Shown: positions 3,969 through 34,073 of the stretch, one piece after another
Numbering within the stretch: position 1 is the stretch's first letter
How the letters are laid out: each line of letters begins with the position of its first letter
From: a virus
DNA: 34,178 nucleotides
Reading direction: 5' to 3' (one strand)
Virus record (IMG/VR): IMGVR_UViG_3300035698_019347
Coordinates: 1 to 34,178 of that record
Position numbers and translations under genes: made by a program
The notes under the pieces: model-generated
Databases searched by the model: none
What the model saw: only the letters and a program-made list of their open reading frames with translations
What the model was told of the DNA's origin: nothing

Positions 3969-6900
3969 ATGGCAATAGGTATCGGCACAGTACTAGCTAT
4001 CAACGCTGCCCTGTGGGGCATCAGCTACCTATTGCGTGATGACGAGCTGGATGCGGAGATTGATAGTGCTACTGGCCAAGGCAGTGGGCAGGTGGCACAG
4101 GAAGGTGACCCCATAGCCATAGTCTACGGGACCGCTAGAGTTTCACAGCCGAACATGCTGCTCCATAGAGAGCGAGCTGTTCGACAGGTATACAAAAAAG
4201 GAAGTTCCATCAACGACCGCTCAAAGGTGGGAGGTGCATTTGAGAATGTTTTTGACGGGCAATTAGCTTTCTGCATAGTGCCAAGGGTTGAGACGGTAGC
4301 CAGCATTAGGCGACTGTGGTTTAAGGACACAGAACTGACTGCGGTAGCAACGTCCAACATTACATTTCACGTTTCACAGAAAGCTCCGAACAGCTCCCCT
4401 ATTCCAGCAGGTACCACGCAACTGAAGGTGCAAGACTTCTTTGCTAAGCGAGGAGAAGGGGGGACCATCGGAACCGGTAACAGCCCAGGCTCATACCAGC
4501 CGTCGGCTAGCTCCTCCTTCAATGCGAAAAATGGTGCACGAGGCTTAATCCATGTCCACCTCGGCACCTATCCGCAGGCTGAGCATGCATTCGTCACGGA
4601 GCTGGTTGAGGACATATTTCAAGCAGACCTTAATGCAGACCCACCGGAGCCTGGACTCCCCACCGTAGATTGGGCTCACCATGCGGGTGGACTACAAGGC
4701 ATCACGCACTTAGTTTTTCAAGACTTCGTTGTTGGTGAGGGCAACTCTTTTCCAGACATTGCAGCAGAAGTAAGGTGCCTGCCAGCACCCATAAATTTAC
4801 CTGCCATTGCCTCTTCGGTTGGTTTCGGAGTTGATGCCAACCCAGCAGCAGTCCTGTGGAGCATTCTTACAGATCCTGTAACCGGTCTAGGTCTTTCAGA
4901 AGACCTACTGGACATGGGTACCTTTGCGAGTGCCTCAAACACCTTGACCACAGAGGTCAACGGGTTTTCCATGGTCCTGCGGCAGAGGATGTCGGCCAAG
5001 AAGCTAATAGGAATTGTTCTAAAGCAGATCGATGGCACCCTCTTTGTAGATCCTGCCACGCAACTAATAACACTTGATCTTGTCCGAGAGGACTATGGGT
5101 CCTTTCCTTACCCCTCACTCGATAGCTTCGGTGCCAGCGACGTGCTGGAGGTTTTAGAGTACCGACTGACATCTTGGGACGACACCTTCAACGAAGTCCG
5201 AATTAAGTACGAGGACCGCTCAAAAGACTATGAGGAGCGCTTTGCGGTCGCTCAGAATATGGGCGGCTTTGCTATGCAGGAGAGGACAACTCCAGTGGAG
5301 TTGTCCTTCCCAGGAATCAAGACCTCAGCAAACGCCAATGCTATCGCTGGCAGAGAACTGAAGTTCAACTCCACTCCGCAGCTAATAGTTAAGCTGAAGA
5401 TGAAGCGGACCGCGCAGGGTCTGCGGCCTGGAAGCGTATTCAAGTGGTCCAGCCCAGAGCACAACGTCGAAGACATGGTGCTCCGTGTACACCAGATCAG
5501 CATGGGACAACTGGAGGACAACGCGATCACAGTTGAGTGCAGCAGGGATAAATACTCTAGCGTTGCGTCTGGGTTCTCTGAGCCACCAGCCCCAGGGATC
5601 AATAAGAAAGGGCTCCTAACCCCGAACAACAGCGTTCCTCACGGTGCTACAAAAGAACTTCCTTGGAACCCTGTCTACATTGACACGTTCCTCCCCTTCA
5701 CAGGCAACAGCTCTTTTGTAAATCTGTCGGGCTCTTCTCAAGAAGCACTAGGTGGGTCTAACGTCGTCATGGATGTAGAAGGGTCTGATGACGGTGGTGC
5801 TAGCTATAGAACAGCCCGGTCCACAGTCCCCCAGGTGCCAGCCGCGTCCGTGGATACGGCTTACGGACGGACCACAGGGGGCTACTACGATACGGTCACA
5901 GGCCTAATAGTAAAGGATGTCACGGACTCGTCTCCACTCAAGAGTTATTCCTCGGAGGGAATAAGAGCTGGGGAGAACCTTGTTTTCATAAATGATGAGA
6001 TCCTCAGCTTCGAGTCTGTCACAGACTTAGGTTCGGGCAGGTATCGACTTAATAACGTGTGGAGGGGGCTGCTTGACACAAAGCCCGCGAGTCAGTCGGT
6101 GGACGATAGTGTGTTTTTTGTTAGTAAGGACACACTGAGAGAAACGCAGCTGCAGGTTGCGCCAGCCCCAGCTAGAGTTTGTGACACGGAAGTAGTGTTT
6201 CAAACCACTGCCCGGGTCGGAAGAAAATCTGCCACACAAGGAGAGTCTCAGGCGCTGGTTACCACGCAGCGGTACCACAGAGCCCCTCATCCCGAGCGCG
6301 CGACGCTCCATATCGATGGCGCTGATGCGGCTGCGTCCACTGCGGAAAACACCTACGACTACAATGAGGTGGACCCTCTGGCAACCACCATCGCACCATC
6401 AATCGGCAACGATGCTGTATCGAGCACAACCGACCTGGGAGAGGTCTTCACCAATGACCTCCGAGGCTCCTGGGTTAGGCGACCCAGGGACATCTACTGT
6501 AACAACACCATCATTCGAGGCGACGAGGATGACATTGAGTTTCCAGCGGACGACCTAACTCGACTCCAGGTTGAGTACAAGATTGACACGACCTCGACAT
6601 GGTCGACACTAACTAGAACTAGCACGTTCGACACTAAAAGGCAGATCCAATCGGCAGGGGAGTATCTATCCATTGCAGAGCTCTCTAACAAGCCACAAAA
6701 GATTCGTGTATCCGCCTACCGAAAGGCAGAGGGGGGAGGAGAGGAGCTCGGCTCCAGGCACGCCGAAGAGATAGCACTGGTCCCGGCGAGCTCTAGGCAA
6801 CTCCTCCTCAACAGGAACTTCGTGCCGTTCTGGGATGTCAACGGACACTCTTCTGCTTCCTATGGGGCAGGGTCTTCCTACCCAGGCAATCCGGTCTATT

Positions 6901-9900
6901 CTGCCCGTGGCTGGCGCAACGTGACCATCGGTGGTGGTCGTCCACGTTACAAGGTCCCGACCAACCCGCTTGTACAAGGATCTCTCGGAGAGGGCTTCTG
7001 TTTTTCTGGAGAGTTCGCTGCGAATGAGTACGTCCGAATCCAGCAGGTTGTGCCTGTTCCTTACTTGGACACAGAACTCAGTGTAGTGAACCTTTCCTGG
7101 TGGTTCTTGAATGCCACCATCGGAGAGGAGTGCGGGTTTCTAGTTACCCTAGAAACCCTGGACGCTAGTGGAGTTGTGCTCAACACAACGTCTGATGAAC
7201 AAACTCCGGGGACGACCGTAGACACATGGTCTAAGTTCACACTGTCGCTAACCGCAACCGCTCCCGCGGCGAGGTCTATCAGAGTAATTCTTGCCCTTAA
7301 GAATCTGACCACTGGCGAGCCTGCAATAAGCAAAGTCTCCATGGTAATGGGTCGAGCTATTGCAACGAACCAGCTGCTTAATAGTAATTTTGATGCACTC
7401 ACTGCGTGGACAGCCACTGGATGGACAGCCATATCTAGTGATGGAGCGCTCACTCCGATCGACAGCCAGTCCACTAACTTCGCTCTCGCTCCTGTTACAG
7501 GCACGTCTGGCACGATGACTCAGACCGTGACTATCCCCGCTGCCTATGGCACAGGGGACTACGTCCGTCTGCAATGGTGGGGCGCAAACCTCGGGTCTCT
7601 TGATGGGATTGGCGGCAGCCTGAAGGTATTGGATGCAGGCTCTTCAGAGATAGCCCAGCATGTTATCGAGGCACAGGCGAACCCAAATGAAGACCAGTGG
7701 TACTTCCATGAGCAGTACCTGCGAATCCCTGGAGAGGCAGTAACAATCGAAGTCGTGTTTGACTCTGCCCAAGTGGCCGGCGCCATGGAAGTGGCAGTCG
7801 ACGAGGCTGACCTAACATTCATCAAAGGAGAAGCGCGAGACTTAGAGCTGAACTGGACCAACACACAGCTTCAGCTGCAACCAGCCACTCCGGTATCCTT
7901 CGCTGTAGCCGCAAACAACCCTAGACTTATTCCCAGCCACATCTTTCCAATGAACGACGGTGCAGGTGTTGCCCCCGTTGACACTGTCAACGGAGCCACG
8001 TTCTCCACCCCCGTTGGGACTGTTGACGTTGACTACTCCTTCGGCGCCCCTGCCTATGGCCTATACAACGGCACCGACCACTCCTCACGAACCGCCCTCG
8101 AGATAAGCTCTGCCAGCGGAGGCATGTCGTCACCGGACGTAGATTTCTTGAATCCGAACCACCAGTCGTTCGGAATTTACATGCAGTACCGCATCGTCGA
8201 AGGCGACAGCGGTGGAACCGTGAGCATCCTGCGCAAAGGTGGTGACCACCTAACCCCTGCGCTGGGAGATGCCACAACACAACTGCACTACGATGAGACC
8301 ACTCACAGGGTCTATCTCGCGGTTGCCTACAATTCGACCGACGCGGGAAGCTTCGCCCTGAATGCCTATGTCGGTGGCACCGTTGATGATGCTTGTTGGC
8401 ACTGGCTATACGCCAAGTTCGACATGACCGAGCAGACCATCGAAGTCTTTGGGGACACCGATGCAGGCACGTCCACCTCAATCACCGCAATGGTTGACGC
8501 CATCGAAGCCGCCGATGAGAGGTTCGAGAACACCACCGACCTAGTTGAGATCGGAGCCAATGCAGATCTAGACGCCAACGACAACCCAGTACAGATTACA
8601 TACCTGGCGATCTTGCGGGGCCGGTCCTCGGATCTATTCGAGCGATCCCATGGGCAAGCCCTGTGGAAGCATGGCCTCGACCAGAACATCATCGACACTG
8701 GCTACACCCCCGTCTACACGCGCACCTCGCGAGTGGCCTACCCCATCTCCGCAACCGACGTCGCGATGTGGGCTGGGTCTGCTGGCGGCGGGGCTGTCCA
8801 AGTCCCACTGGAATACAACGCCAACGTCGCAGGCAACGGCTTAGGCTTAGGCTGTTTCTCAGCCACCGAGAACCTAGCGACCTACGCCAATGATCTAACT
8901 CAGTGGACCGCTAGCAGTGCAGCATCTGGTGCCAAACTCATCTCTGAGCGAGGGCTCCGTGAGATGAACGTGGTGGACGCCACGGCAAACGGGGGTCACT
9001 ACTACCGCGACTTCACTGTTGTAGATGCCACCACGTACCGAGTGAGCTTCTTCGCCAGAGCCGAGACTGGTTCCCACACAGCAACGGTTGAGGCCACAGA
9101 ATCTGACCTGTCAACGGTGGCGGGAAGTGTTGCACCAGCTATTACGACAACCCGAGGGCGCTACACCTTCACGTTTGTCTCATCTGGTACGACAGCTCGC
9201 ATCAAGCTCTTCGGAGGCACCGCAGGCACACAGACCAACACAGGCTACCACGGCATCATGCTCACCGAAGGGACGGAGTATGGCCCAGTCATCTACAACG
9301 ACATCGATCAGGATGGCACCACAGAGACGCTGGCAGCACAGACGCAAGTCCTTACCGTCACCGGCAACGAACTGACCTCGCCTGATGAGGGATCTATCTA
9401 CGTGGCCTACGTGCAGGCTGTCGTCGACACAGGGTCCATACGATCTCTCTGCGAGATTCACAGTGCATCAGGCAGCCAAGACCGTCGCGTCATGCGCATC
9501 CTTGCCAATGGCACACAGGAGTCTGTGGCCTACGACGGTGTCGGGGCTAACTATCACACCACGACCGCACACGCCGCGCTCACGGCCAACAGCGAGTACA
9601 ACCGAAGCACCAAATGGCGACGCAAGGCGAACCTAGAGGCAGGCGCCTACACTCTTGAGGACGACATCACGGCCCCAGGAGCCCTCACGGTTAATGCCAC
9701 AGGCACAGCCAACACCGAAGGCACCGGTGGGCACACGCTCATCTACATCGCATGCCGCTCCACCGGTTCAGGGCAGCTCTCCGGTCCCCTGCAGACGCTC
9801 AAGCTCTACACGGGGGAGGCACGGAACTTCAACATCGTTCCAGCTACCGTCACGCAGAACACAACCCTGTTTACAACGAACCCCGCGGAGTCTGGTGGCG

Positions 9901-12488
9901 GTGGCGTAACGGACCACGGCGCCCTCGCGGGTCTGGCAGACGATGACCACACTCAATACCTACTGGTCGATGGCACCCGAGCCTCCACCGGAGCTCAGAC
10001 CTTTTCTGCTGGCATTGCCATAGGAGGCAACACTGCAAGCGACATCCTGATATCCACAGACGGGGCCAGTACATCCGACGCGGCGATCGTAACGGCAGGG
10101 TGGATTGACGCCAACGTGGCGGGCGGTGGAACTCTCGACTCTAGCTACGACTCCGGCGGTGCAGGGGCAGGTCGGGCGATTGTAGTCGACACAGGCGCCA
10201 TCACGCTAACCACGGACGCCATAGCAACTGCCGCCACGCCAGCACTTGAACTAATAAACTCCACCGCAGCTGCAGCCGGTGCTCAGCAGTACTCCCCAAT
10301 GCTGGTGCTAGAAGCGCAGGGCTGGAAGACCGATGCAACGGCAGCCACTCAGGAAGTTCTCATGGCGCTTCAGTTGCGCACACTTCAGAACGATTCTCAG
10401 CCAACCGCAGAGCTGGCATTCAGATCAAACATAAATGGTGCCGGGTACCAGGACACCTTTGTCATCGGAAACTTCTACAAGGGGGCTCTTTGGCAGATAG
10501 AGGCCCCGGGGGCATCATCTGGATCGGTCCCCTACCCAGACTACTCCTTCGCGCTAGACCGAGGGCTGGGGATGGGCCGGGGCGCAGCAGGAACACTGAG
10601 TTTCTCTGCTGCCTTCTCTCGTCGCATGACGATGACGTCGTCGCAGCTTCGGGCATACTTCGCAGCCAGCGGCACGCTGCCCCACATCGCTGTCGAAAAC
10701 GTAAACACAGGCTTCGGAAGCCCCGGAGTGGGTCGAGCGTCGGTAATCACAGCAGGTACTCAGGCGGTAGAGTGGGACAACACACAGAACCAGATCAACG
10801 CAGGCAACATAACCGCGGCAGAGGACACAGATGCAACATTCATCTTTGGCAGGGCAAGGATAGATACTCGCGCAACAGACATTGCGTACTTCTCTCATTA
10901 CGATGCGGCCACTACGGTTAACTATGCCCTCCGGCAAAACGCTGCTGGCGCGACTCGTCTCAACAGCGTCTACGCCATGTCGTTTACTCTGAGCAACACA
11001 ATCGAGTTCAACATCACCGCAGACAGCGGGCTTTACGCGGACGACGCCAACGGACCGGCGGTGCTGAACGAAGTGCCATCAGCCACGAATCCAACGCTCA
11101 TCCCAGACAGAGCGGACCTAACTACGGGTGTCAGCAACACAGGTACTACAGGGCTAGTGTCCGTCATCACAGGAGCCCTCGAAGCCGTCCGCTGGGATGG
11201 CTCACAGAACCAGATCAACGCAGGGAATATAGCTCTTGGGAATACCCAGAGACTGATCCTCGATACTGACCAAGACACGTACATTATGTCGGACGCTGAT
11301 GACGACATAAGCTTTATCGTCGGAGGGTCGGAGCGCCTCTATATACAAAATAGTGTTATATCCGCAACTGTCCCCCTAAGTCCTATCACGGGTACTGCGG
11401 CGGCGCCGGGCATCCGCAACAATGGGGATGCCGACTCAGGCTTCTTCTTTGATGTCGTTGGAGAGGTCGCCGTTACTACGGCAGGGACCGAAGCCGTCCG
11501 CTGGGATGGCTCACAGAACCAGATCAACGCAGGCAATGTCTTACCCGATGCCCACAACACACTGGACCTCGGGGCACTGGCCACTAGATGGGCCAACATC
11601 TACACAGAGTACACGCGCACCACTACCATCGAAACTGGCGCTGGCTCAGTCGGTACCCCCGCCGTCCGCTTAGGTCCTGGCAATGCGTATGGACTCTACA
11701 ACCTTGGAGGCACAGCGTTAGCGATCACAACCAATGGGAGCCTAGCGTGCTCCTGGGGGGCGGGTGGTCAGATGGACCTGGCCATAGCAGGTGCAGTGGG
11801 CGCTGCAGCGTTCTACTTGAACGGTGATTTCAACACAGGAATCTACCAAAGCTCCGTGAACGAGTTCGCCATCACAACGCAAGGATCACAGGCAGTCCGC
11901 TGGAACTCTGCACAGAACCAAATAAACTCTGGAGACGTGATACCAAGCGCGGACAGCACGCACGACCTTGGTTTGACGGGGACTCGCTGGAGAGACCTGT
12001 TTGTCGACGATGTCACTGCCACCACTGATATCACGGCAGGAGGGGACTTAGATGCAGCCGGCGGCTTCCGGCGAACGCTCAATGTTCAGTCGCTGAACAA
12101 CCCCGCAACTGGAACAGCTTACCGAATGACTGCCGATGGCTCTCTGTCGACTGCCGATAACACTAGCCACCCAGGATGGTTCGTTATGCCTCGGAATGGC
12201 TCCGTGGTAGAGATTTCCGTTTGGATCAATGACATCGTAGCTGCAGGGCAAATCGACTTTTGGATACAGTCCTCGACAGACGGGGGTGACACCTGGGCAG
12301 ACGAGTGGGGATCTTCAGGTACCCCCATCCTGAGTCTCGACACCGCAAACGATAAAGTCAACGCAGCCGCCCAGGCAAAGGGAACCAGTGCTGTGAATGC
12401 AGGAAATGTTCTCCGAATTAGGGCCACTACGAATGGCTCATTTACAGCAGGGCGAACAGTCTACGCAGCTATTGGGGTAGAGTGCTAG
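3969..12488 (+). CDS. Giant tail tip/fibre protein (J-like N-terminus, modular C-terminus)
   Basis: 2839 residues, by far the largest gene here. Residues 1-25 are hydrophobic and are followed by GDPIAIVYGTARV, typical of phage tip attachment proteins. About residues 1-560 form the J-like/tail-tip part. From ~938 there are jelly-roll, carbohydrate-binding-like units (LLLNRNF near 940, LLNSNFDALTAW near 1134, a third near 1634), a LamG/concanavalin-like region (~1321-1555) and a second one (~1806-1950). At ~1983 comes the fibre motif GLADDDHTQYL, then a shaft with four copies of a repeat ending in QNQINAGN (near 2260, 2400, 2500, 2632) alternating with DLG..xRW units. There is no S74-type self-cleaving chaperone at the end. 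Likely role: host recognition and surface glycan binding. Domain edges are by eye. Confidence 0.85.
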   Translation: MAIGIGTVLAINAALWGISYLLRDDELDAEIDSATGQGSGQVAQEGDPIAIVYGTARVSQPNMLLHRERAVRQVYKKGSSINDRSKVGGAFENVFDGQLAFCIVPRVETVASIRRLWFKDTELTAVATSNITFHVSQKAPNSSPIPAGTTQLKVQDFFAKRGEGGTIGTGNSPGSYQPSASSSFNAKNGARGLIHVHLGTYPQAEHAFVTELVEDIFQADLNADPPEPGLPTVDWAHHAGGLQGITHLVFQDFVVGEGNSFPDIAAEVRCLPAPINLPAIASSVGFGVDANPAAVLWSILTDPVTGLGLSEDLLDMGTFASASNTLTTEVNGFSMVLRQRMSAKKLIGIVLKQIDGTLFVDPATQLITLDLVREDYGSFPYPSLDSFGASDVLEVLEYRLTSWDDTFNEVRIKYEDRSKDYEERFAVAQNMGGFAMQERTTPVELSFPGIKTSANANAIAGRELKFNSTPQLIVKLKMKRTAQGLRPGSVFKWSSPEHNVEDMVLRVHQISMGQLEDNAITVECSRDKYSSVASGFSEPPAPGINKKGLLTPNNSVPHGATKELPWNPVYIDTFLPFTGNSSFVNLSGSSQEALGGSNVVMDVEGSDDGGASYRTARSTVPQVPAASVDTAYGRTTGGYYDTVTGLIVKDVTDSSPLKSYSSEGIRAGENLVFINDEILSFESVTDLGSGRYRLNNVWRGLLDTKPASQSVDDSVFFVSKDTLRETQLQVAPAPARVCDTEVVFQTTARVGRKSATQGESQALVTTQRYHRAPHPERATLHIDGADAAASTAENTYDYNEVDPLATTIAPSIGNDAVSSTTDLGEVFTNDLRGSWVRRPRDIYCNNTIIRGDEDDIEFPADDLTRLQVEYKIDTTSTWSTLTRTSTFDTKRQIQSAGEYLSIAELSNKPQKIRVSAYRKAEGGGEELGSRHAEEIALVPASSRQLLLNRNFVPFWDVNGHSSASYGAGSSYPGNPVYSARGWRNVTIGGGRPRYKVPTNPLVQGSLGEGFCFSGEFAANEYVRIQQVVPVPYLDTELSVVNLSWWFLNATIGEECGFLVTLETLDASGVVLNTTSDEQTPGTTVDTWSKFTLSLTATAPAARSIRVILALKNLTTGEPAISKVSMVMGRAIATNQLLNSNFDALTAWTATGWTAISSDGALTPIDSQSTNFALAPVTGTSGTMTQTVTIPAAYGTGDYVRLQWWGANLGSLDGIGGSLKVLDAGSSEIAQHVIEAQANPNEDQWYFHEQYLRIPGEAVTIEVVFDSAQVAGAMEVAVDEADLTFIKGEARDLELNWTNTQLQLQPATPVSFAVAANNPRLIPSHIFPMNDGAGVAPVDTVNGATFSTPVGTVDVDYSFGAPAYGLYNGTDHSSRTALEISSASGGMSSPDVDFLNPNHQSFGIYMQYRIVEGDSGGTVSILRKGGDHLTPALGDATTQLHYDETTHRVYLAVAYNSTDAGSFALNAYVGGTVDDACWHWLYAKFDMTEQTIEVFGDTDAGTSTSITAMVDAIEAADERFENTTDLVEIGANADLDANDNPVQITYLAILRGRSSDLFERSHGQALWKHGLDQNIIDTGYTPVYTRTSRVAYPISATDVAMWAGSAGGGAVQVPLEYNANVAGNGLGLGCFSATENLATYANDLTQWTASSAASGAKLISERGLREMNVVDATANGGHYYRDFTVVDATTYRVSFFARAETGSHTATVEATESDLSTVAGSVAPAITTTRGRYTFTFVSSGTTARIKLFGGTAGTQTNTGYHGIMLTEGTEYGPVIYNDIDQDGTTETLAAQTQVLTVTGNELTSPDEGSIYVAYVQAVVDTGSIRSLCEIHSASGSQDRRVMRILANGTQESVAYDGVGANYHTTTAHAALTANSEYNRSTKWRRKANLEAGAYTLEDDITAPGALTVNATGTANTEGTGGHTLIYIACRSTGSGQLSGPLQTLKLYTGEARNFNIVPATVTQNTTLFTTNPAESGGGGVTDHGALAGLADDDHTQYLLVDGTRASTGAQTFSAGIAIGGNTASDILISTDGASTSDAAIVTAGWIDANVAGGGTLDSSYDSGGAGAGRAIVVDTGAITLTTDAIATAATPALELINSTAAAAGAQQYSPMLVLEAQGWKTDATAATQEVLMALQLRTLQNDSQPTAELAFRSNINGAGYQDTFVIGNFYKGALWQIEAPGASSGSVPYPDYSFALDRGLGMGRGAAGTLSFSAAFSRRMTMTSSQLRAYFAASGTLPHIAVENVNTGFGSPGVGRASVITAGTQAVEWDNTQNQINAGNITAAEDTDATFIFGRARIDTRATDIAYFSHYDAATTVNYALRQNAAGATRLNSVYAMSFTLSNTIEFNITADSGLYADDANGPAVLNEVPSATNPTLIPDRADLTTGVSNTGTTGLVSVITGALEAVRWDGSQNQINAGNIALGNTQRLILDTDQDTYIMSDADDDISFIVGGSERLYIQNSVISATVPLSPITGTAAAPGIRNNGDADSGFFFDVVGEVAVTTAGTEAVRWDGSQNQINAGNVLPDAHNTLDLGALATRWANIYTEYTRTTTIETGAGSVGTPAVRLGPGNAYGLYNLGGTALAITTNGSLACSWGAGGQMDLAIAGAVGAAAFYLNGDFNTGIYQSSVNEFAITTQGSQAVRWNSAQNQINSGDVIPSADSTHDLGLTGTRWRDLFVDDVTATTDITAGGDLDAAGGFRRTLNVQSLNNPATGTAYRMTADGSLSTADNTSHPGWFVMPRNGSVVEISVWINDIVAAGQIDFWIQSSTDGGDTWADEWGSSGTPILSLDTANDKVNAAAQAKGTSAVNAGNVLRIRATTNGSFTAGRTVYAAIGVEC
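11180..11533 (+). repeat. Exact 45-bp direct repeat inside the fibre gene
   Basis: Bases 11180-11224 and 11489-11533 are identical over 45 bp and lie 309 bp apart in the same frame. They encode the core of the EAVRWDGSQNQINAG repeat. A third, partly matching copy lies near 10760-10805 and a more diverged one near 11890-11930. Identity at the nucleotide level, not only in protein, points to recent duplication or gene conversion between shaft units. Confidence 0.9.
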
Positions 12489-12948: not shown

Positions 12949-13416
12949 ATGAGCGAACGATACATCTCAATTCCCGCAGCGGCAGAATTCCGCGACTCCT
13001 TTACCAAAGAAGTAATCAAGGTCCAAAACGAGGAAGGTGTCCTCGTAGACCACCCAGAGCGGACGTTCGACTGGTTCATGCATGTCTTCATGCTGTCTCA
13101 CCTGCAGTTCTCTATGGACGTCGGTGGCTACGACGCTGTGAAGGCAGCCAAGGAAATTGCCAAGTCGTTGGAGAAGGCCATGGACGCGAAGGAGGGCTTC
13201 TTTGCTGTGTCGGCAGACAACTGGCGCCGTCTCAATTGCTGCCTATCCCGTCCCGAGGACAAGGACTCGGACGAGCGCATGAAGGAGAAACCCAATCAGA
13301 AGGTCTTGGCAAAGTCCTCCCACGGGATGACACGAGCCATGGACAACTTCACCGCGCAGTGCTTCATGGACCACATGGACGCGATTGCCAACGCCTCCAC
13401 CAACAAGCCTGAGTAG
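12949..13416 (+). CDS. Unknown soluble protein
   Basis: 155 residues, mainly helical, with many Met, Asp and Lys and no membrane segment. The start ATG at 12949 lacks a Shine-Dalgarno sequence of the AGGAG type; AGAACGA sits at 12936-12942 instead. It is the last gene before the replication promoter at 13441, so it closes the tail-side transcription unit. Family not recognised. Confidence 0.7.
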   Translation: MSERYISIPAAAEFRDSFTKEVIKVQNEEGVLVDHPERTFDWFMHVFMLSHLQFSMDVGGYDAVKAAKEIAKSLEKAMDAKEGFFAVSADNWRRLNCCLSRPEDKDSDERMKEKPNQKVLAKSSHGMTRAMDNFTAQCFMDHMDAIANASTNKPE

Positions 13417-13430
13417 ATCCACCTACTCCA

Positions 13431-13464
13431 ACACCAGCGCTTTACAGGTGTAAAGCGCTGGTGT
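13431..13464. promoter_or_regulatory. Perfect 34-bp palindrome, probable operator
   Basis: Left arm ACACCAGCGCTTTACA (13431-13446), two-base centre GG, right arm TGTAAAGCGCTGGTGT (13449-13464): 16 bp each side with no mismatch. It covers the -35 box, the whole spacer and the first base of the -10 box of the promoter at 13441-13469. No T-run follows, so it is not an intrinsic terminator. A dimeric repressor bound here would block RNA polymerase. Confidence 0.85.
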
Positions 13465-13469
13465 ATAAT
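13441..13469 (+). promoter_or_regulatory. Sigma70-type promoter of the replication region
   Basis: TTTACA at 13441-13446, 17-bp spacer, consensus TATAAT at 13464-13469. The expected transcription start is near 13476-13477, giving a leader of about seven bases (AGAACGA) before the ATG at 13484. It is the best promoter match seen in the + strand part of the window and lies at the boundary between tail and replication genes. Confidence 0.85.
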
Positions 13470-13483
13470 GCTCTGCAGAACGA

Positions 13484-13627
13484 ATGGGATACTCCAAGAA
13501 ACCACTCACTCTGTACAAGGAAGTCTTCCCCTGCAGGCGAGACAAAGTGCAGCTTAGACAATTCCATTGGGGCTTCCTCCTGGGGATGGTCTGCACGATT
13601 ATTTATGTTGTGGCAATCGCCCTATGA
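13484..13627 (+). CDS. 47-residue single-span membrane protein
   Basis: ATG at 13484, stop TGA at 13625-13627 overlapping the ATG of the helicase gene (ATGA). The N-terminal half is basic and polar (MGYSKKPLTLYKE start, CRRDKVQLRQ), and the last ~20 residues form one hydrophobic segment (FLLGMVCTIIYVVAIAL). It is the first gene behind the 13441 promoter, with AGAACGA directly before the ATG and no classical Shine-Dalgarno. The four-base overlap with the next gene supports real translation. Function unknown; small membrane peptides at the head of early operons sometimes act on the host envelope or anchor a partner. Confidence 0.65.
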   Translation: MGYSKKPLTLYKEVFPCRRDKVQLRQFHWGFLLGMVCTIIYVVAIAL

Positions 13628-15117
13628 CCTACGAGTTCAAGACCAAGCCCTTCGCTCACCAACTTCGGGTGTTCGAGGAGACCAAGGACAGGGAGGCCTA
13701 CGCAATCTTTTGGGAACAAGGCACGGGGAAGTCGAAGCTAACCCTCGACAACGTCGGGTACCTGTATGACCAAGGGAAGATCGACTGTCTCTTCGTCGTC
13801 GCACCCAACGGTGTGCATCGCAACTGGACCCATGAAGAGGTCGGGAACCACTGGTCTGATGAACTGCTGAAGGAAGTTGGTACTTTCACCTACCACGCCT
13901 CAAAAACCAAAACAAAATACCACCAAAAAAAAGCGGCAGCTATCCTAAAGCACAAGGGTCTGGTGGTCGTGGCCATGAGCTACGACTCCTTCGTGACCAA
14001 AGATGGGAAGATCTTCGCGAAGCTCGTGCTCACGAAGAGGCGATGCATGCTTGTGCTTGACGAGTCGGCTCGCATAAAGAATCCGAGTGCGAAGCGGACG
14101 AAGACGATCATGGCTGCCTCGAAGTACGCAACGTACAAGCGAATCCTAACAGGGACGCCCGTTGCGCAAGGCCCATTTGATCTATACAGCCAAATGAAGT
14201 TTCTCGACGCCAACTACTGGAAGCCCAAAGGGCTTGGCAGCTACACAATGTTCAAGAATTTCTTCGCCATCTGGCGCCAGCAAGTTATGGGCGACCGCAA
14301 GTTCCCTGTGCTGGTCGAGTACCAGAACCTCGATCACCTGCACGATGTGATAAAGCCCGACTCGAGCCGCGTGCTAAAGGAAGAGGTGCTAGACCTCCCA
14401 GCTAAGCTCTACTCTAGGCGCTACTTCCAAATGAGCACCCGGCAGGCGAAGCTCTACAAAGAACTGCGGGATGACTTCGTTGCACAGTTCGACGAGGCTG
14501 GAGGCATCATCACAGCGGACCTGGCTATAACGAGGATGCTGCGGCTGCAACAGATTGCCTGTGGGTACGTGACCGTCGAGCATGAGACTCCGTCCGCCGA
14601 TGGCTTCTCTGTAGACATCCGCAAAGAGGTCTTAGACATAGACGAGGTGAACCCAAGGGTTGCTGCGGTGCTTGAGCTCTTGGAGGACCTGCCACACAAA
14701 GCAATCGTGTTCGCCAAGTTCACTCGGGACATCGACATGTTCATGGAAGCCCTTGGGGACCGGGCGGTTCGCTACAATGGCAAGTGCTCGGTCGACGAGA
14801 AGGCCCACGCCATCGACTCGTTTCAGCATGGCAAGCACAAGGACGCCCAGTTCTTTATCGCCAACGCGCAAGCCGCAGGCGAAGGCCTGACCCTGCACAG
14901 AGCGAAGACCGTGGTCTACCACAACAACAGTTTTCGCTTGACCGAGCGGCTGCAGTCGGAAGACCGGCCCCACCGCATTGGGATGGACAAGAACCCAGTG
15001 CAGTACGTCGACATTGTTGCGGAGGGCACGATTGATGAGAAGGTCATCACCGCGCTGCTAAGCAAGATGGACATCGCCAGCCAGATCACTGGTGACAAGT
15101 TCAAAGAGTGGCTTTAG
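13624..15117 (+). CDS. SNF2-family DNA helicase/ATPase
   Basis: 497 residues from ATG 13624, chosen because it gives an ATGA overlap with the preceding small gene. A start further upstream (TTG 13567) would only read the small gene in another frame. Motif I EQGTGKS is near residue 35, motif II LDESARIKN near 145 (DES in place of DEAD/DEAH), motif III LTGTPVAQGP near 175, and the C-terminal lobe has GEGLTLHRA and ...DRPHRIG, the SNF2 motif V/VI signature, near 420-450. Family members are ATP-driven translocases; in phages they appear in replication or recombination modules and may remodel forks or displace proteins. Confidence 0.88.
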   Translation: MTYEFKTKPFAHQLRVFEETKDREAYAIFWEQGTGKSKLTLDNVGYLYDQGKIDCLFVVAPNGVHRNWTHEEVGNHWSDELLKEVGTFTYHASKTKTKYHQKKAAAILKHKGLVVVAMSYDSFVTKDGKIFAKLVLTKRRCMLVLDESARIKNPSAKRTKTIMAASKYATYKRILTGTPVAQGPFDLYSQMKFLDANYWKPKGLGSYTMFKNFFAIWRQQVMGDRKFPVLVEYQNLDHLHDVIKPDSSRVLKEEVLDLPAKLYSRRYFQMSTRQAKLYKELRDDFVAQFDEAGGIITADLAITRMLRLQQIACGYVTVEHETPSADGFSVDIRKEVLDIDEVNPRVAAVLELLEDLPHKAIVFAKFTRDIDMFMEALGDRAVRYNGKCSVDEKAHAIDSFQHGKHKDAQFFIANAQAAGEGLTLHRAKTVVYHNNSFRLTERLQSEDRPHRIGMDKNPVQYVDIVAEGTIDEKVITALLSKMDIASQITGDKFKEWL

Positions 15118-18210: not shown

Positions 18211-18244
18211 AATGGCCCCTATCCCCGGTTAGGGGCCATTTTTT
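18211..18244 (+). terminator. Rho-independent terminator after the SSB-like gene
   Basis: Stem AATGGCCCCT (18211-18220) and AGGGGCCATT (18231-18240), ten-base loop, then a run of six T at 18239-18244. It lies 32 bp after the SSB-like stop and 28 bp before the next gene. It may let part of the transcripts stop so that upstream genes are made in excess over helicase and polymerase. Confidence 0.92.
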
Positions 18245-21653: not shown

Positions 21654-22053
21654 GCAACAGATGAGGCAGATTGTCGTCAAGGCCCTCGAAGGTCTTGATG
21701 CAATCAGTGTGGAGAACCCCGCTCGGCCAGGGACGCCGGATGTCAACTACATCGAAGGCTGGGTAGAGCTCAAGTACCTGCCTGCGTGGCCGGTTCGAGC
21801 CAACACGCCAGTCAAGATCAAGTGCTTCACTCCGCAGCAGCGGGTGTGGCTAAGTCGCCGGTGCCGCCGTGGCGGCCGAGCCTTCTTTCTGGCACGCATT
21901 GCTGATGACTGGCTGCTCTACGATGGTGCGACGGCAGCAGAATTCATTGGTCACATAACAAAGGAAGAGATGTTCGATAAGGCTCTCCTGCACTGTGACC
22001 TAAAACTAAGAACGAATGACCTAATAAGGGTGCTGAAGACATGGGCAAGCTAG
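21646..22053 (+). CDS. VRR-NUC-type PD-(D/E)xK nuclease
   Basis: 135 residues. The catalytic core PGTPDVNYIEGWVELKYL supplies Asp (PD) and the Glu-x-Lys of the PD-(D/E)xK fold, as in VRR-NUC domains. A later QQRVWLSRRCRRGGRAFF fits the basic helix seen in these enzymes. Phage members of this size are thought to cut branched DNA such as Holliday or replication junctions. The start overlaps the preceding gene by eight bases and the end overlaps the following gene by 13, keeping it inside the replication operon. Confidence 0.8.
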   Translation: MLEQQMRQIVVKALEGLDAISVENPARPGTPDVNYIEGWVELKYLPAWPVRANTPVKIKCFTPQQRVWLSRRCRRGGRAFFLARIADDWLLYDGATAAEFIGHITKEEMFDKALLHCDLKLRTNDLIRVLKTWAS

Positions 22054-22388
22054 CTACCAAGGACTTGACGAGAGGGGAGAAACTCTACATCTACAGACAT
22101 CGATCGGAACTAACGCAGATCCAGATGTCCGTTGAGCTAGGTGTTTGTCTGTCTGAGTATCGCGCTATGGAGTTCGACGAGGAGGGGGTGAGAACTCCCT
22201 ACCACTCGGTAGCTCCGGTCGAGGAGCACGAGTCTTGTGCCGTGCGCCGACGCCGCGAAGGGATGACGAAATCGGAACTGGCTCAGCTCATCGGTGTTTC
22301 GCCATACTGGTTGGGTCAAATGGAAGCTGGTCAAGCACCTATCGGAAGGCTCGTCCGCTACTGGGAGAACGACAATGAAGTGGGATAA
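22041..22388 (+). CDS. Tandem helix-turn-helix (XRE-like) DNA-binding protein
   Basis: 115 residues with two similar helix-turn-helix units. The first is about residues 12-48 (GEKLYIYRHRSELTQIQMSV), the second about 68-100 (RRRREGMTKSELAQLIGVSP). Both resemble Cro/CI-type domains, the second more clearly. A tandem arrangement in one chain could bind two half-sites as a monomer. It lies between a nuclease and the primase-helicase, overlapping both, so it may be a local regulator or an origin-binding factor. Confidence 0.7.
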   Translation: MGKLATKDLTRGEKLYIYRHRSELTQIQMSVELGVCLSEYRAMEFDEEGVRTPYHSVAPVEEHESCAVRRRREGMTKSELAQLIGVSPYWLGQMEAGQAPIGRLVRYWENDNEVG

Positions 22389-27751: not shown

Positions 27752-27962
27752 AAACTTCATTATCGAGACAGTACAGCTTCAGTCCTTCGGTGGCCAGATC
27801 TCGGATAAAGGTGCTGAAGCCATAGCTAGCTGGGTTCAGGTGCCGTGCCTTTATCCTGTGCTTGTACGCCTTCTCTAGTGGCTGCCTCAACTGAGGGCTG
27901 ATCCTCATGTTGATGTTGATGTCGGCGCCACGAGCTTGCCGAGAGGCATTTACCTTTATCAT
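27750..27962 (-). CDS. Ribbon-helix-helix (Arc/MetJ-like) candidate repressor
   Basis: 70 residues from ATG 27962. A TTG 12 codons upstream (27998) is rejected because it is the -35 box itself. After a basic lead (KVNASRQARG) comes the beta strand DININMRIS, helix A (PQLRQPLEKAYKHRIKARHL), a turn and helix B (STFIRDLATEGLKLYCLDN): the ribbon-helix-helix order. The gene stands alone between its own promoter and terminator. Its promoter shares the nonamer TGTAAAGCG with the replication promoter, so autoregulation plus control of the replication genes is the likely job (inference). Confidence 0.7.
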   Translation of the reverse strand: MIKVNASRQARGADININMRISPQLRQPLEKAYKHRIKARHLNPASYGFSTFIRDLATEGLKLYCLDNEV

Positions 27963-27969
27963 ATAGTTG

Positions 27970-27998
27970 ATTCTACTTGGACGCTTTACAGATGTCAA
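27970..27998 (-). promoter_or_regulatory. Promoter of the ribbon-helix-helix gene, with shared operator core
   Basis: On the - strand: consensus TTGACA (27998-27993), 17-bp spacer, TAGAAT (27975-27970). Seven bases later is ATG 27962, so the transcript should be leaderless. TGTAAAGCG occupies 27990-27982, two bases after the -35, exactly as in the 13441 promoter. TTGACA-TC-TGTAAA also forms an imperfect dyad. The -35 abuts the stop codon of the upstream gene. Confidence 0.82.
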
Positions 27999-31842: not shown

Positions 31843-32417
31843 AACATCCCCACCTGTTCGCGATCAGGAAACACTTGTTTGACCTTCAGCTTTTGGAAGA
31901 CCTCGTTGATGGTCCAGGGTCGGAAGTCATGCGTGTCGACACCCACATCGAGGCGGCGGGTCTTCTTGCCAAGCTTGCCGTGCGAGTGTCCGTGACAGTG
32001 GACGCTCTTGCCTCCGTAGCTGTCATGCCAGGTCTCCAGAGCGTAGTGGCTCATCACGACGAGCTTTCCGTTACGCATGATCTCTAGGTACCCTGGGTTG
32101 ATGTCAGCGAAGAGCTCATGGTCCAGTCGCACCCGCTTGCGCCAGTCTGGATGCCAATCGCCACCGTCGGTCTCGTGGTTGCCAACGATGAGTATCTTGT
32201 GGCCGTTGAGTCGGCTGATGTAGTCGTTGGCGTAGTCGAGTGGGCACTTCTTGTGCGAGATGTCCCCGAGAATGTAGACGAGGTCTTCTGGAGCGACGGA
32301 CTCATTCCATCGCTCCATCATCACCACATCCATCTGCTCTACGTTGTCGAAGGGACGACTGCAGTGCTTGATGATGTTGGCGTGACCTACGTGCAGGTCG
32401 CTGGTTAGGTGGATCAA
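31839..32417 (-). CDS. Calcineurin-like metallophosphoesterase
   Basis: 192 residues from TTG 32417, overlapping the LuxR-type gene stop (TTGA) with AAGG just before. Metal ligands are clear: Asp7 and His9 in SDLHVGH, Asp52 in LGDISH, Asn80-His81 in VGNHET, His124 in MSHYAL, and HCHGHSHG at 140-147. Phage members include phosphatases and nucleases; the substrate cannot be told. Together with the HD protein it forms a phosphate-removing pair. Confidence 0.9.
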   Translation of the reverse strand: MIHLTSDLHVGHANIIKHCSRPFDNVEQMDVVMMERWNESVAPEDLVYILGDISHKKCPLDYANDYISRLNGHKILIVGNHETDGGDWHPDWRKRVRLDHELFADINPGYLEIMRNGKLVVMSHYALETWHDSYGGKSVHCHGHSHGKLGKKTRRLDVGVDTHDFRPWTINEVFQKLKVKQVFPDREQVGMF

Positions 32418-32644
32418 AGAGCCTTGCCATCAGCAGAGAGAACCTGGTTCTTGAGGAGGAACCAGACCAGCTGCACAGCGCAGTTCAGGTCGAGCTTGTG
32501 TAGCACACGCAAGCGGTGGTGGTCGAAGGTCTTGGTGGCGACGCTCATCGCTTCGCCCCCCTCTTCACGGGTTACGCCTTGCGCTACCAGGAGCGCGGCT
32601 TGTTGTTCACGAGGAGAGAGCGTTTCCCAAAGTTTGTTTGACAT
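32414..32644 (-). CDS. Stand-alone LuxR/GerE-type helix-turn-helix protein
   Basis: 76 residues from ATG 32644, preceded by AGAAAG. A longer frame upstream overlaps a membrane protein gene and is not used. The whole product is one GerE-type domain: LSPREQQAALLVAQGVT..., then VATKTFDHHRLRVLHKLDL, matching the LSxRE start and the recognition helix of LuxR-type regulators. No sensor domain is attached, so it resembles small regulators that act constitutively or with a partner. Confidence 0.75.
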   Translation of the reverse strand: MSNKLWETLSPREQQAALLVAQGVTREEGGEAMSVATKTFDHHRLRVLHKLDLNCAVQLVWFLLKNQVLSADGKAL

Positions 32645-32655
32645 GATGAATCTTT

Positions 32656-32925
32656 CTATTCTTCTGTGCTGGTTGGTGCTGGTGTCGGACCAAGGCCGAA
32701 GGCCCGGTTCAAGGTAAGCAGGATGAATATGATTGGTATGTATATACCCAGTGCTAGCAGCCAGGAGCCGGTCTCGGCAGCAAGTACCACAGTTCCGATC
32801 TTGGTTGCCACTGTTAGCCATTTTTCTGATCTGGAGAATGTCTTACTCAACGTAGTTCCCCTTGGCAATGGATGATGGCTCCGCGCTGGACGGGCCTCTT
32901 CTTCTGGTGTCTTGTAGTTAGACAT
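32656..32925 (-). CDS. Two-span small membrane protein
   Basis: 89 residues from ATG 32925, six bases after GGAGG (a second ATG directly upstream is possible). A basic N-terminus is followed by two hydrophobic stretches (WLTVATKIGTVVLAA and LALGIYIPIIFILLTL) and a Pro/Thr tail. Holins have such shapes, but this gene is 5 kb from the endolysin. Function unknown. Confidence 0.6.
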   Translation of the reverse strand: MSNYKTPEEEARPARSHHPLPRGTTLSKTFSRSEKWLTVATKIGTVVLAAETGSWLLALGIYIPIIFILLTLNRAFGLGPTPAPTSTEE

Positions 32926-33145: not shown

Positions 33146-33702
33146 GCCGCCCCCTCCGGGATGTAAAGGTTGGTTGGGTTGTCGTAATGAATCTGAATAG
33201 CCCCGCCGAACTCGTCAACAAGCCTGCGATCAAAGGGACTTGTTAGGACGTGAAACCCCTTCTTGGAAGGTATGCTAACGCTGGACTCGTGCTCCATCAG
33301 CCACTTGTACAGTGGAGTCTCGTCGGGTGTGTCAAAGTCAAACAGCCACACTTTCTCCTTGGCATTCTTTCCACAGGAGGACGAGTAGCCGTGGCGCATC
33401 CCCTCCCAGTTCTCTGCGAATGCCTGGTCTAGCAAGTGCGCTGCGAACTTTCGCCCTACGTGCTTGAAGCTTCGTTTGCTGGGACGAAAGTAGGCCCTGG
33501 ATTTGAAGTAGTTGCACATGTCTACGATCTGTTCTTCTTGGTGCAGAAACCCGGCACGGGTCCGGTGATAGAATGTCTTGAGTCGTCGGCCTTTGTTGTT
33601 ACCAGCCCTCTTGGTCCGGTCCAAGATCTCTGTGTAGAGGAAGGTGTCCCCGTCGAACTCTTCGGGAACGTATTGGCTGAGTAGTTGGAAGTTATTGATC
33701 AT
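33142..33702 (-). CDS. Primase-like (AEP-fold candidate) phage protein
   Basis: 186 residues; the ATG overlaps the methyltransferase stop (ATGA). The second half has WLFDFDTPDE, a hydrophobic-DxD motif, and about 25 residues later SIPSKKGFHVLTSPFD, similar to motif II (SxxGxH) of archaeo-eukaryotic primases. The first half is basic (TKRAGNNKGRRLKTFYHRTRAG is roughly where it begins, near 30). If correct, this would be a second primase-fold protein beside the 790-residue one. The similarity is short and the function unproven. Confidence 0.5.
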   Translation of the reverse strand: MINNFQLLSQYVPEEFDGDTFLYTEILDRTKRAGNNKGRRLKTFYHRTRAGFLHQEEQIVDMCNYFKSRAYFRPSKRSFKHVGRKFAAHLLDQAFAENWEGMRHGYSSSCGKNAKEKVWLFDFDTPDETPLYKWLMEHESSVSIPSKKGFHVLTSPFDRRLVDEFGGAIQIHYDNPTNLYIPEGAA

Positions 33703-34073
33703 GGCAGTTTCCTCCCGACGTGTTCGTGCTCAAAGCTCTTGCGGTACTGCTTCCAGCCAATGAAGTTGCCGCTCCGCATGCTTGTTGGCAGTGCTTGAGC
33801 GCAGTGCTCGAATGCGGACCAATGGCCCGCGTCGCGGCCTGCGGAACTGACGTCTTGGCAAGGGAATCCTCCACAGATGGTGTCGACTGGCTCAAGGTTG
33901 TTCTTTCCGACGCTACAAACGTCGTGGTGGATAGGGCAGTCGGGCCAGTGCTTAGATAAGACTTCTCGGCAGTAGGGGTCTTTCTCTACCTGCCACACAG
34001 TGTCGCCGAGTCCAGACCATTCGAGACCCAGCTCCAGCGAACCTATGCCGCTAAACAAGCTGCCAATTAACAT
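33699..34073 (-). CDS. C5 cytosine methyltransferase N-terminal fragment
   Basis: 124 residues. Motif I SLFSGIGSLELG (5-16) binds S-adenosylmethionine, and motif IV GGFPCQDVSSAG (68-79) carries the catalytic Cys72. The ENV motif, the target recognition domain and motifs VIII-X are missing; intact enzymes exceed 300 residues. After residue 80 the sequence does not resemble the family. The stop overlaps the next ATG, so the short form looks settled in the operon rather than freshly broken. It may bind the cofactor but should not methylate unaided. Confidence 0.7.
   Translation of the reverse strand: MLIGSLFSGIGSLELGLEWSGLGDTVWQVEKDPYCREVLSKHWPDCPIHHDVCSVGKNNLEPVDTICGGFPCQDVSSAGRDAGHWSAFEHCAQALPTSMRSGNFIGWKQYRKSFEHEHVGRKLP

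Follow-up and report, generated by a model that had tools for sequence, protein, structure and literature searches.

A perfect dyad over a predicted replication promoter as a candidate repressor operator in a phage near Mesyanzhinovviridae

What would a long perfect palindrome do when it lies over the promoter that separates the tail genes of a phage from its replication genes? The question is raised by a virus record of 34,178 bases (hereafter the window, meaning the whole stretch of DNA that was analysed), which its helicase and tandem-HTH homologues place near Mesyanzhinovviridae. The transcription control of Mesyanzhinovviridae-like phages appears to be little described, and nothing direct on it was found in the searchable open literature.

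The palindrome sits in a gap of 67 bp that follows the rightward tail genes, the last ORF of which has its stop at 13416, and that ends at the ATG of a small ORF at 13484. The features of this region are as follows.

13431 to 13464, no strand: perfect 16+2+16 bp dyad, the proposed operator, from sequence and shuffles
13441 to 13469, plus strand: predicted sigma-70-type promoter TTTACA-N17-TATAAT, 11/12, top-scoring in the window
13484 to 13627, plus strand: first ORF behind the promoter, 47 aa long, its C-terminal stretch hydrophobic
13624 to 15117, plus strand: SNF2-type DNA helicase (phrog_62), the first large replication gene

The stop of the 47-aa ORF overlaps the helicase start (13624) as ATGA, and the helicase is followed by a Dda-like helicase, a DNA polymerase, a tandem-HTH protein and a primase. 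On the tail side, a protein of 2,839 aa is encoded at 3969–12488, of which known tail families match the first ~730 residues only.

The initial annotation of this DNA had described a perfect 16+2+16 bp dyad, and this description holds: the left arm (13431–13446, ACACCAGCGCTTTACA) and the right arm (13449–13464, TGTAAAGCGCTGGTGT) are 100% complementary around a central GG, giving 32 paired bases out of 34. No other perfect dyad in the window is as long or has 16-bp arms, and 40 first-order Markov shuffles of the window, with loops of 6 or fewer, gave perfect arms of at most 12. The coordinates likewise bear out the claim that the dyad covers the −35, the spacer and the first base of the −10 at the tail/replication boundary, as it extends from 10 bp ahead of the −35 (TTTACA, 13441–13446) through the 17-bp spacer to the initial T of the −10 (TATAAT, 13464–13469). 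Just two promoters scoring 11/12 are present on both strands of the window, at 13441 (plus) and 27998 (minus), an 11/12 site being found in 3 of 40 shuffles per strand, and, given two such promoters and a single dyad of this quality in 34 kb, an overlap would arise by chance in well under 1% of cases.

The dyad centre falls near −28.5 relative to the predicted transcription start, between near-consensus hexamers with the ideal 17-bp spacing. Because of this position, about 28 bp before the start, a protein bound at the dyad would be expected to exclude polymerase and is unlikely to act as an activator; the placement thus supports a steric repressor site. The ATG of the 47-aa ORF lies ~8 nt past the predicted start. 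A divergent minus-strand promoter at the dyad was considered and rejected, since its −10 would be TTGGAG or TGTTGG, as was a telomere-resolvase or recombinase site, a thought prompted by the length and perfection of the palindrome, there being no such gene among the ORFs scanned. Rfam and tRNA searches of the window returned nothing.

Support for an operator comes from the other 11/12 promoter, which precedes the gene of a small protein, P0003.

27970 to 27998, minus strand: second 11/12 promoter, TTGACA-N17-TAGAAT, with the −35 at 27998–27993 and the −10 at 27975–27970
27753 to 27962, minus strand: P0003, a 70-aa Arc/Mnt-like (ribbon-helix-helix-like) protein

This promoter reads TTGACA-TC-TGTAAAGCG (27998–27982) and the dyad promoter TTTACA-GG-TGTAAAGCG, in identical register, so that nine consecutive spacer bases are shared, for which the chance within a 17-bp spacer is ~3e-5 (9 x 4^-9). 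The window holds three exact copies of TGTAAAGCG, namely the two dyad arms and the one in the second promoter. Over the 29 bases of the dyad promoter the two sites are identical at 20, the best of 100 shuffles being 19, and the shared pattern TTNACA-N2-TGTAAAGCG-N6-TANAAT, drawn post hoc from the two sites, had zero matches in shuffles even at 3 mismatches. Symmetry in the second promoter is confined to the core and includes one mismatch. The promoter begins where the upstream gene ends with its stop codon; the outer left half of the site has no freedom to be symmetric there, being made up of the 3′ terminus of that gene together with its stop. Where the second promoter has the consensus TTGACA, the first has TTTACA, the symmetric partner of TGTAAA, as if symmetry had been selected for there.

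The genes read leftward from ~25.2 kb comprise a methylase fragment, a LuxR-type HTH protein and nucleotide enzymes, followed by P0003 and by holin-like and CHAP-type proteins. The methylase fragment (33699–34073, minus) is a C5 cytosine methylase ORF of 124 aa that covers the N-terminal part of the family only and may be truncated, frameshifted or split, while the LuxR/GerE-type HTH lies in an ORF of 135 aa (32414–32821, minus) with a weak match to a phage sigma-factor family. The ATG of P0003 is 7 nt past its −10, at the predicted start, and its mRNA is therefore probably leaderless. Strong −10 boxes lie 6–14 nt ahead of three gene starts in all, at 27962 and 34073 (minus) and 13484 (plus), which suggests leaderless or nearly leaderless mRNAs.

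We consider it likely, with a probability of about 0.7, that the dyad is the operator of a repressor. The most economical reading of the two sites is that one repressor acts on both promoters. In the model that we favour, a dimeric phage-encoded repressor would bind the dyad, covering the −35 and spacer, and would shut off the rightward replication operon, i.e. the 47-aa ORF, the helicase and the genes downstream of it. On the P0003 promoter, a weaker and only half-symmetric copy of the operator, in the same register, would allow P0003 to limit its own synthesis, and since the replication operator is the perfect dyad, replication would be repressed more tightly than P0003. The model as a whole, with dimeric P0003 on dyad and half-operator, replication shut off and autoregulation, has in our estimate a little less than an even chance. 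The switch that the initial annotation had proposed has thus gained a steric placement and an in-register half-site on a second promoter, while binding and transcription remain predictions.

P0003 is favoured as the binder because the second site is its own promoter. We infer both this identity and repression upon binding from the dyad, the promoter-like sequences, the in-register half-site and the gene order, and that P0003 acts as a repressor at the dyad is, in our view, slightly less than an even bet. Residues N18 and R20 align with the N-x-R strand of Arc and Mnt (NINMRI against FNLRW in Arc and FNFRM in Mnt), and helices are predicted with modest confidence at 23–39 and 49–64, after a strand-like segment. 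The single-sequence structure model is of low confidence, with a mean pLDDT of 61.5 and no PDB match, BLASTP with Arc gave nothing, and no homologues were found in IMG/VR, phages or 28 related records; a lone weak match in phage C75C1 was dismissed, as it sits inside a much longer ORF. P0003 matches no Pfam, PHROG or NCBIfam family model, no HMM library assigns it to the DNA-binding proteins, and the RHH models PF01402 and PF03869 are silent on the window. The protein looks Arc/Mnt-like, an RHH fold being suggested rather than proven. The earlier proposal that this 70-aa protein is the binder is supported by the half-site TGTAAAGCG in its promoter; a ribbon-helix-helix family match did not materialise, and a second protein is also a candidate.

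22041 to 22388, plus strand: P0004, a 115-aa tandem-HTH protein, inside the replication operon

P0004 is a serious rival to P0003 as the binder and is favoured by family evidence and conservation: it has two HTH segments, with HTH_31 above its cut-off, and is conserved through Mesyanzhinovviridae, where it is annotated ‘repressor’. If the operator belonged to P0004, the result would be negative feedback on replication with the P0003 promoter as a second target, and the two HTH units of one subunit could read each 16-bp arm. Phage promoters with the same TTTACA-N2-TGTAAA core also precede Xre-type genes in L055, L063 and L074. However, an exact scan of the window finds no copy of TGTAAAGCG near 22041–22388, leaving the P0004 gene without an operator copy nearby, and the protein, present in 11 of 19 records searched, is encoded among them by reference phages that lack such a dyad at the helicase promoter; we regard this reading as unlikely, if a good deal less so than those that follow. 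The TTTACA-N2-TGTAAA core is a generic palindrome, and TACA-N2-TGTA sites are used by several bacterial regulators of the CopY/BlaI type, no gene of which was found in the window, so the dyad might instead be bound by a regulator of the host, through which the phage would sense host state. Yet across 84,980 species of bacteria and archaea, each represented by a single genome, CGCTTTACA-N2-TGTAAAGCG occurs at 4 places, about what chance would give (257e9/4^18 = 3.7), and their contexts are unrelated, which makes a host regulator improbable.

A different kind of explanation is that the palindrome is an RNA hairpin ending the tail transcript, as a terminator, an insulator or a stabiliser of the 3′ end, and that only the compactness of the genome makes it overlap the promoter. 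The hairpin begins 15 nt past the tail gene stop and folds at −27.4 kcal/mol (z = −5.5), and a bacterial dyad of the same geometry (L174) also directly follows a stop codon; but the U-tract of an intrinsic terminator is absent after it (UGUAUAAUGCUC), unlike the terminator at 18211–18240, and the half-site at the P0003 promoter, where there is no such hairpin, would go unexplained, so we give this account a low probability, near that of a host regulator and slightly under it. That the dyad is a relic or arose by chance, and that two strong promoters share the nonamer by coincidence, agrees with its exact sequence being conserved in no relative, but shuffles produced neither the 16-bp arms nor the joint promoter match, and we find this very hard to credit. 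The bacterial dyad just mentioned lies in a Bacillota MAG (L174:1724–1763) as a perfect ACAAAACCGCTTTACA-AT-TGTAAAGCGGTTTTGT running into TATAAT, with the 16+2+16 geometry and register of the window; it is placed between two co-directional bacterial genes and may represent a fusion of terminator and promoter.

The expectation that related phages would carry the same dyad before the SNF2 gene failed, in relatives with at most about 50% helicase identity, many of which have other inverted repeats there. The exact dyad is absent from all relatives found (reference phages, 80 IMG/VR helicase loci and pattern scans), neither it nor its 20-bp core occurs in IMG/VR, and a 65-bp query of the region gave no meaningful match to phages and plasmids. 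Since the helicase of the closest relative is only ~50% identical in amino acids, this absence neither confirms nor refutes function.

In many relatives the same helicase is preceded by repeats peculiar to them and unrelated to the dyad, iterated in GC-rich relatives and inverted around the promoter (TTGACA...TGTCAA) in AT-rich ones. Among the GC-rich relatives, an 8-mer is present upstream of the helicase in both orientations in 7 copies in L111 and L095 and in 4 in L002, L005, L094 and L112, counts unmatched in 100 shuffles; in L008, L010, L011 and L012 the repeats do not clearly exceed the shuffles, and they are absent from several relatives. In the window, the 600 bp upstream of the helicase contain no 8-mer in more than 2 copies, against up to 7 in relatives, and thus lack an iteron-type region. 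Opposite-orientation iterated repeats (such as AACCTAAG, ACTCGACT and GACCATACT) lie before the SNF2 helicase at L005:297–640, L007:3458–3920 and L002:4763–4944 and in L095, L111 and L112, and some such repeats surround an AT-rich stretch; these regions are candidate replication origins or control regions. In the distant AT-rich relatives, GTCAA (the mirror of the −35 TTGAC) follows the −10 within 14 nt in 32 of the 48 helicase promoters with a recognisable −35 and −10, against 1.6% of shuffled tails, although the sequences are related and the counts not independent. The promoter in these records (L119–L173) is TTGACA-N16-18-TATATA, ~40–70 bp upstream of the helicase start, and TTGACA and TGTCAA/AGTCAA inverted repeats flank it in the same 32 of 48.

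A further proposition is that a single tiny Arc-like protein, unrecognised by family models, runs a switch of two promoters that replaces the iterated-repeat region that relatives have at the same place, the P0003 half-operator possibly also setting the level of the lysis genes behind P0003; we offer this tentatively and think it rather doubtful. If the readings are true, they name an operator and a candidate repressor and supply two testable promoters, and the helicase-upstream region would act throughout the group as a hub for control or as an origin.

Among known systems, Mesyanzhinovviridae (Yuavirus, Abidjanvirus, Vojvodinavirus and Epaquintavirus) share the region between tail genes and SNF2 helicase, which in them spans ~200–500 bp as opposed to 67 bp and one dyad in the window; opposite-orientation iterated repeats stand out in Vojvodinavirus and in one Abidjanvirus, those of the others compared being weaker. 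Xre/HTH_3-type phage repressors resemble the present case in a dyad that lies over the promoter and overlaps the −35, the TTTACA-N2-TGTAAA core occurs in register in other phage promoters, some of them before Xre genes, and a phage-encoded HTH protein of repressor type is at hand in P0004; in contrast, neither operator copies by its gene, a multi-operator control region nor a divergent repressor/Cro pair was seen in the window. With P22 Arc and P-ant the system shares a small protein with a putative N-x-R strand, an operator between −35 and −10 (O-arc, 14798–14818, lies inside the promoter at 14793–14821) and a repressor gene first behind a promoter that carries its site. It differs in that the operator sequence is unrelated, the stronger site belongs to a different promoter, that of replication, the inter-helix segment of P0003 is longer and no RHH model matches. 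Of what marks an Arc/Mnt-type switch, an operator inside the target promoter and the same site in P0003's own promoter are thus present, an RHH regulator recognised by family model (Pfam, PHROG or NCBIfam) is not. Judged from its sequence, the operator-like dyad is real, well placed and independently supported by the second promoter; it adds a new case to a type of switch already known, and is both ordinary in kind and a useful test case.
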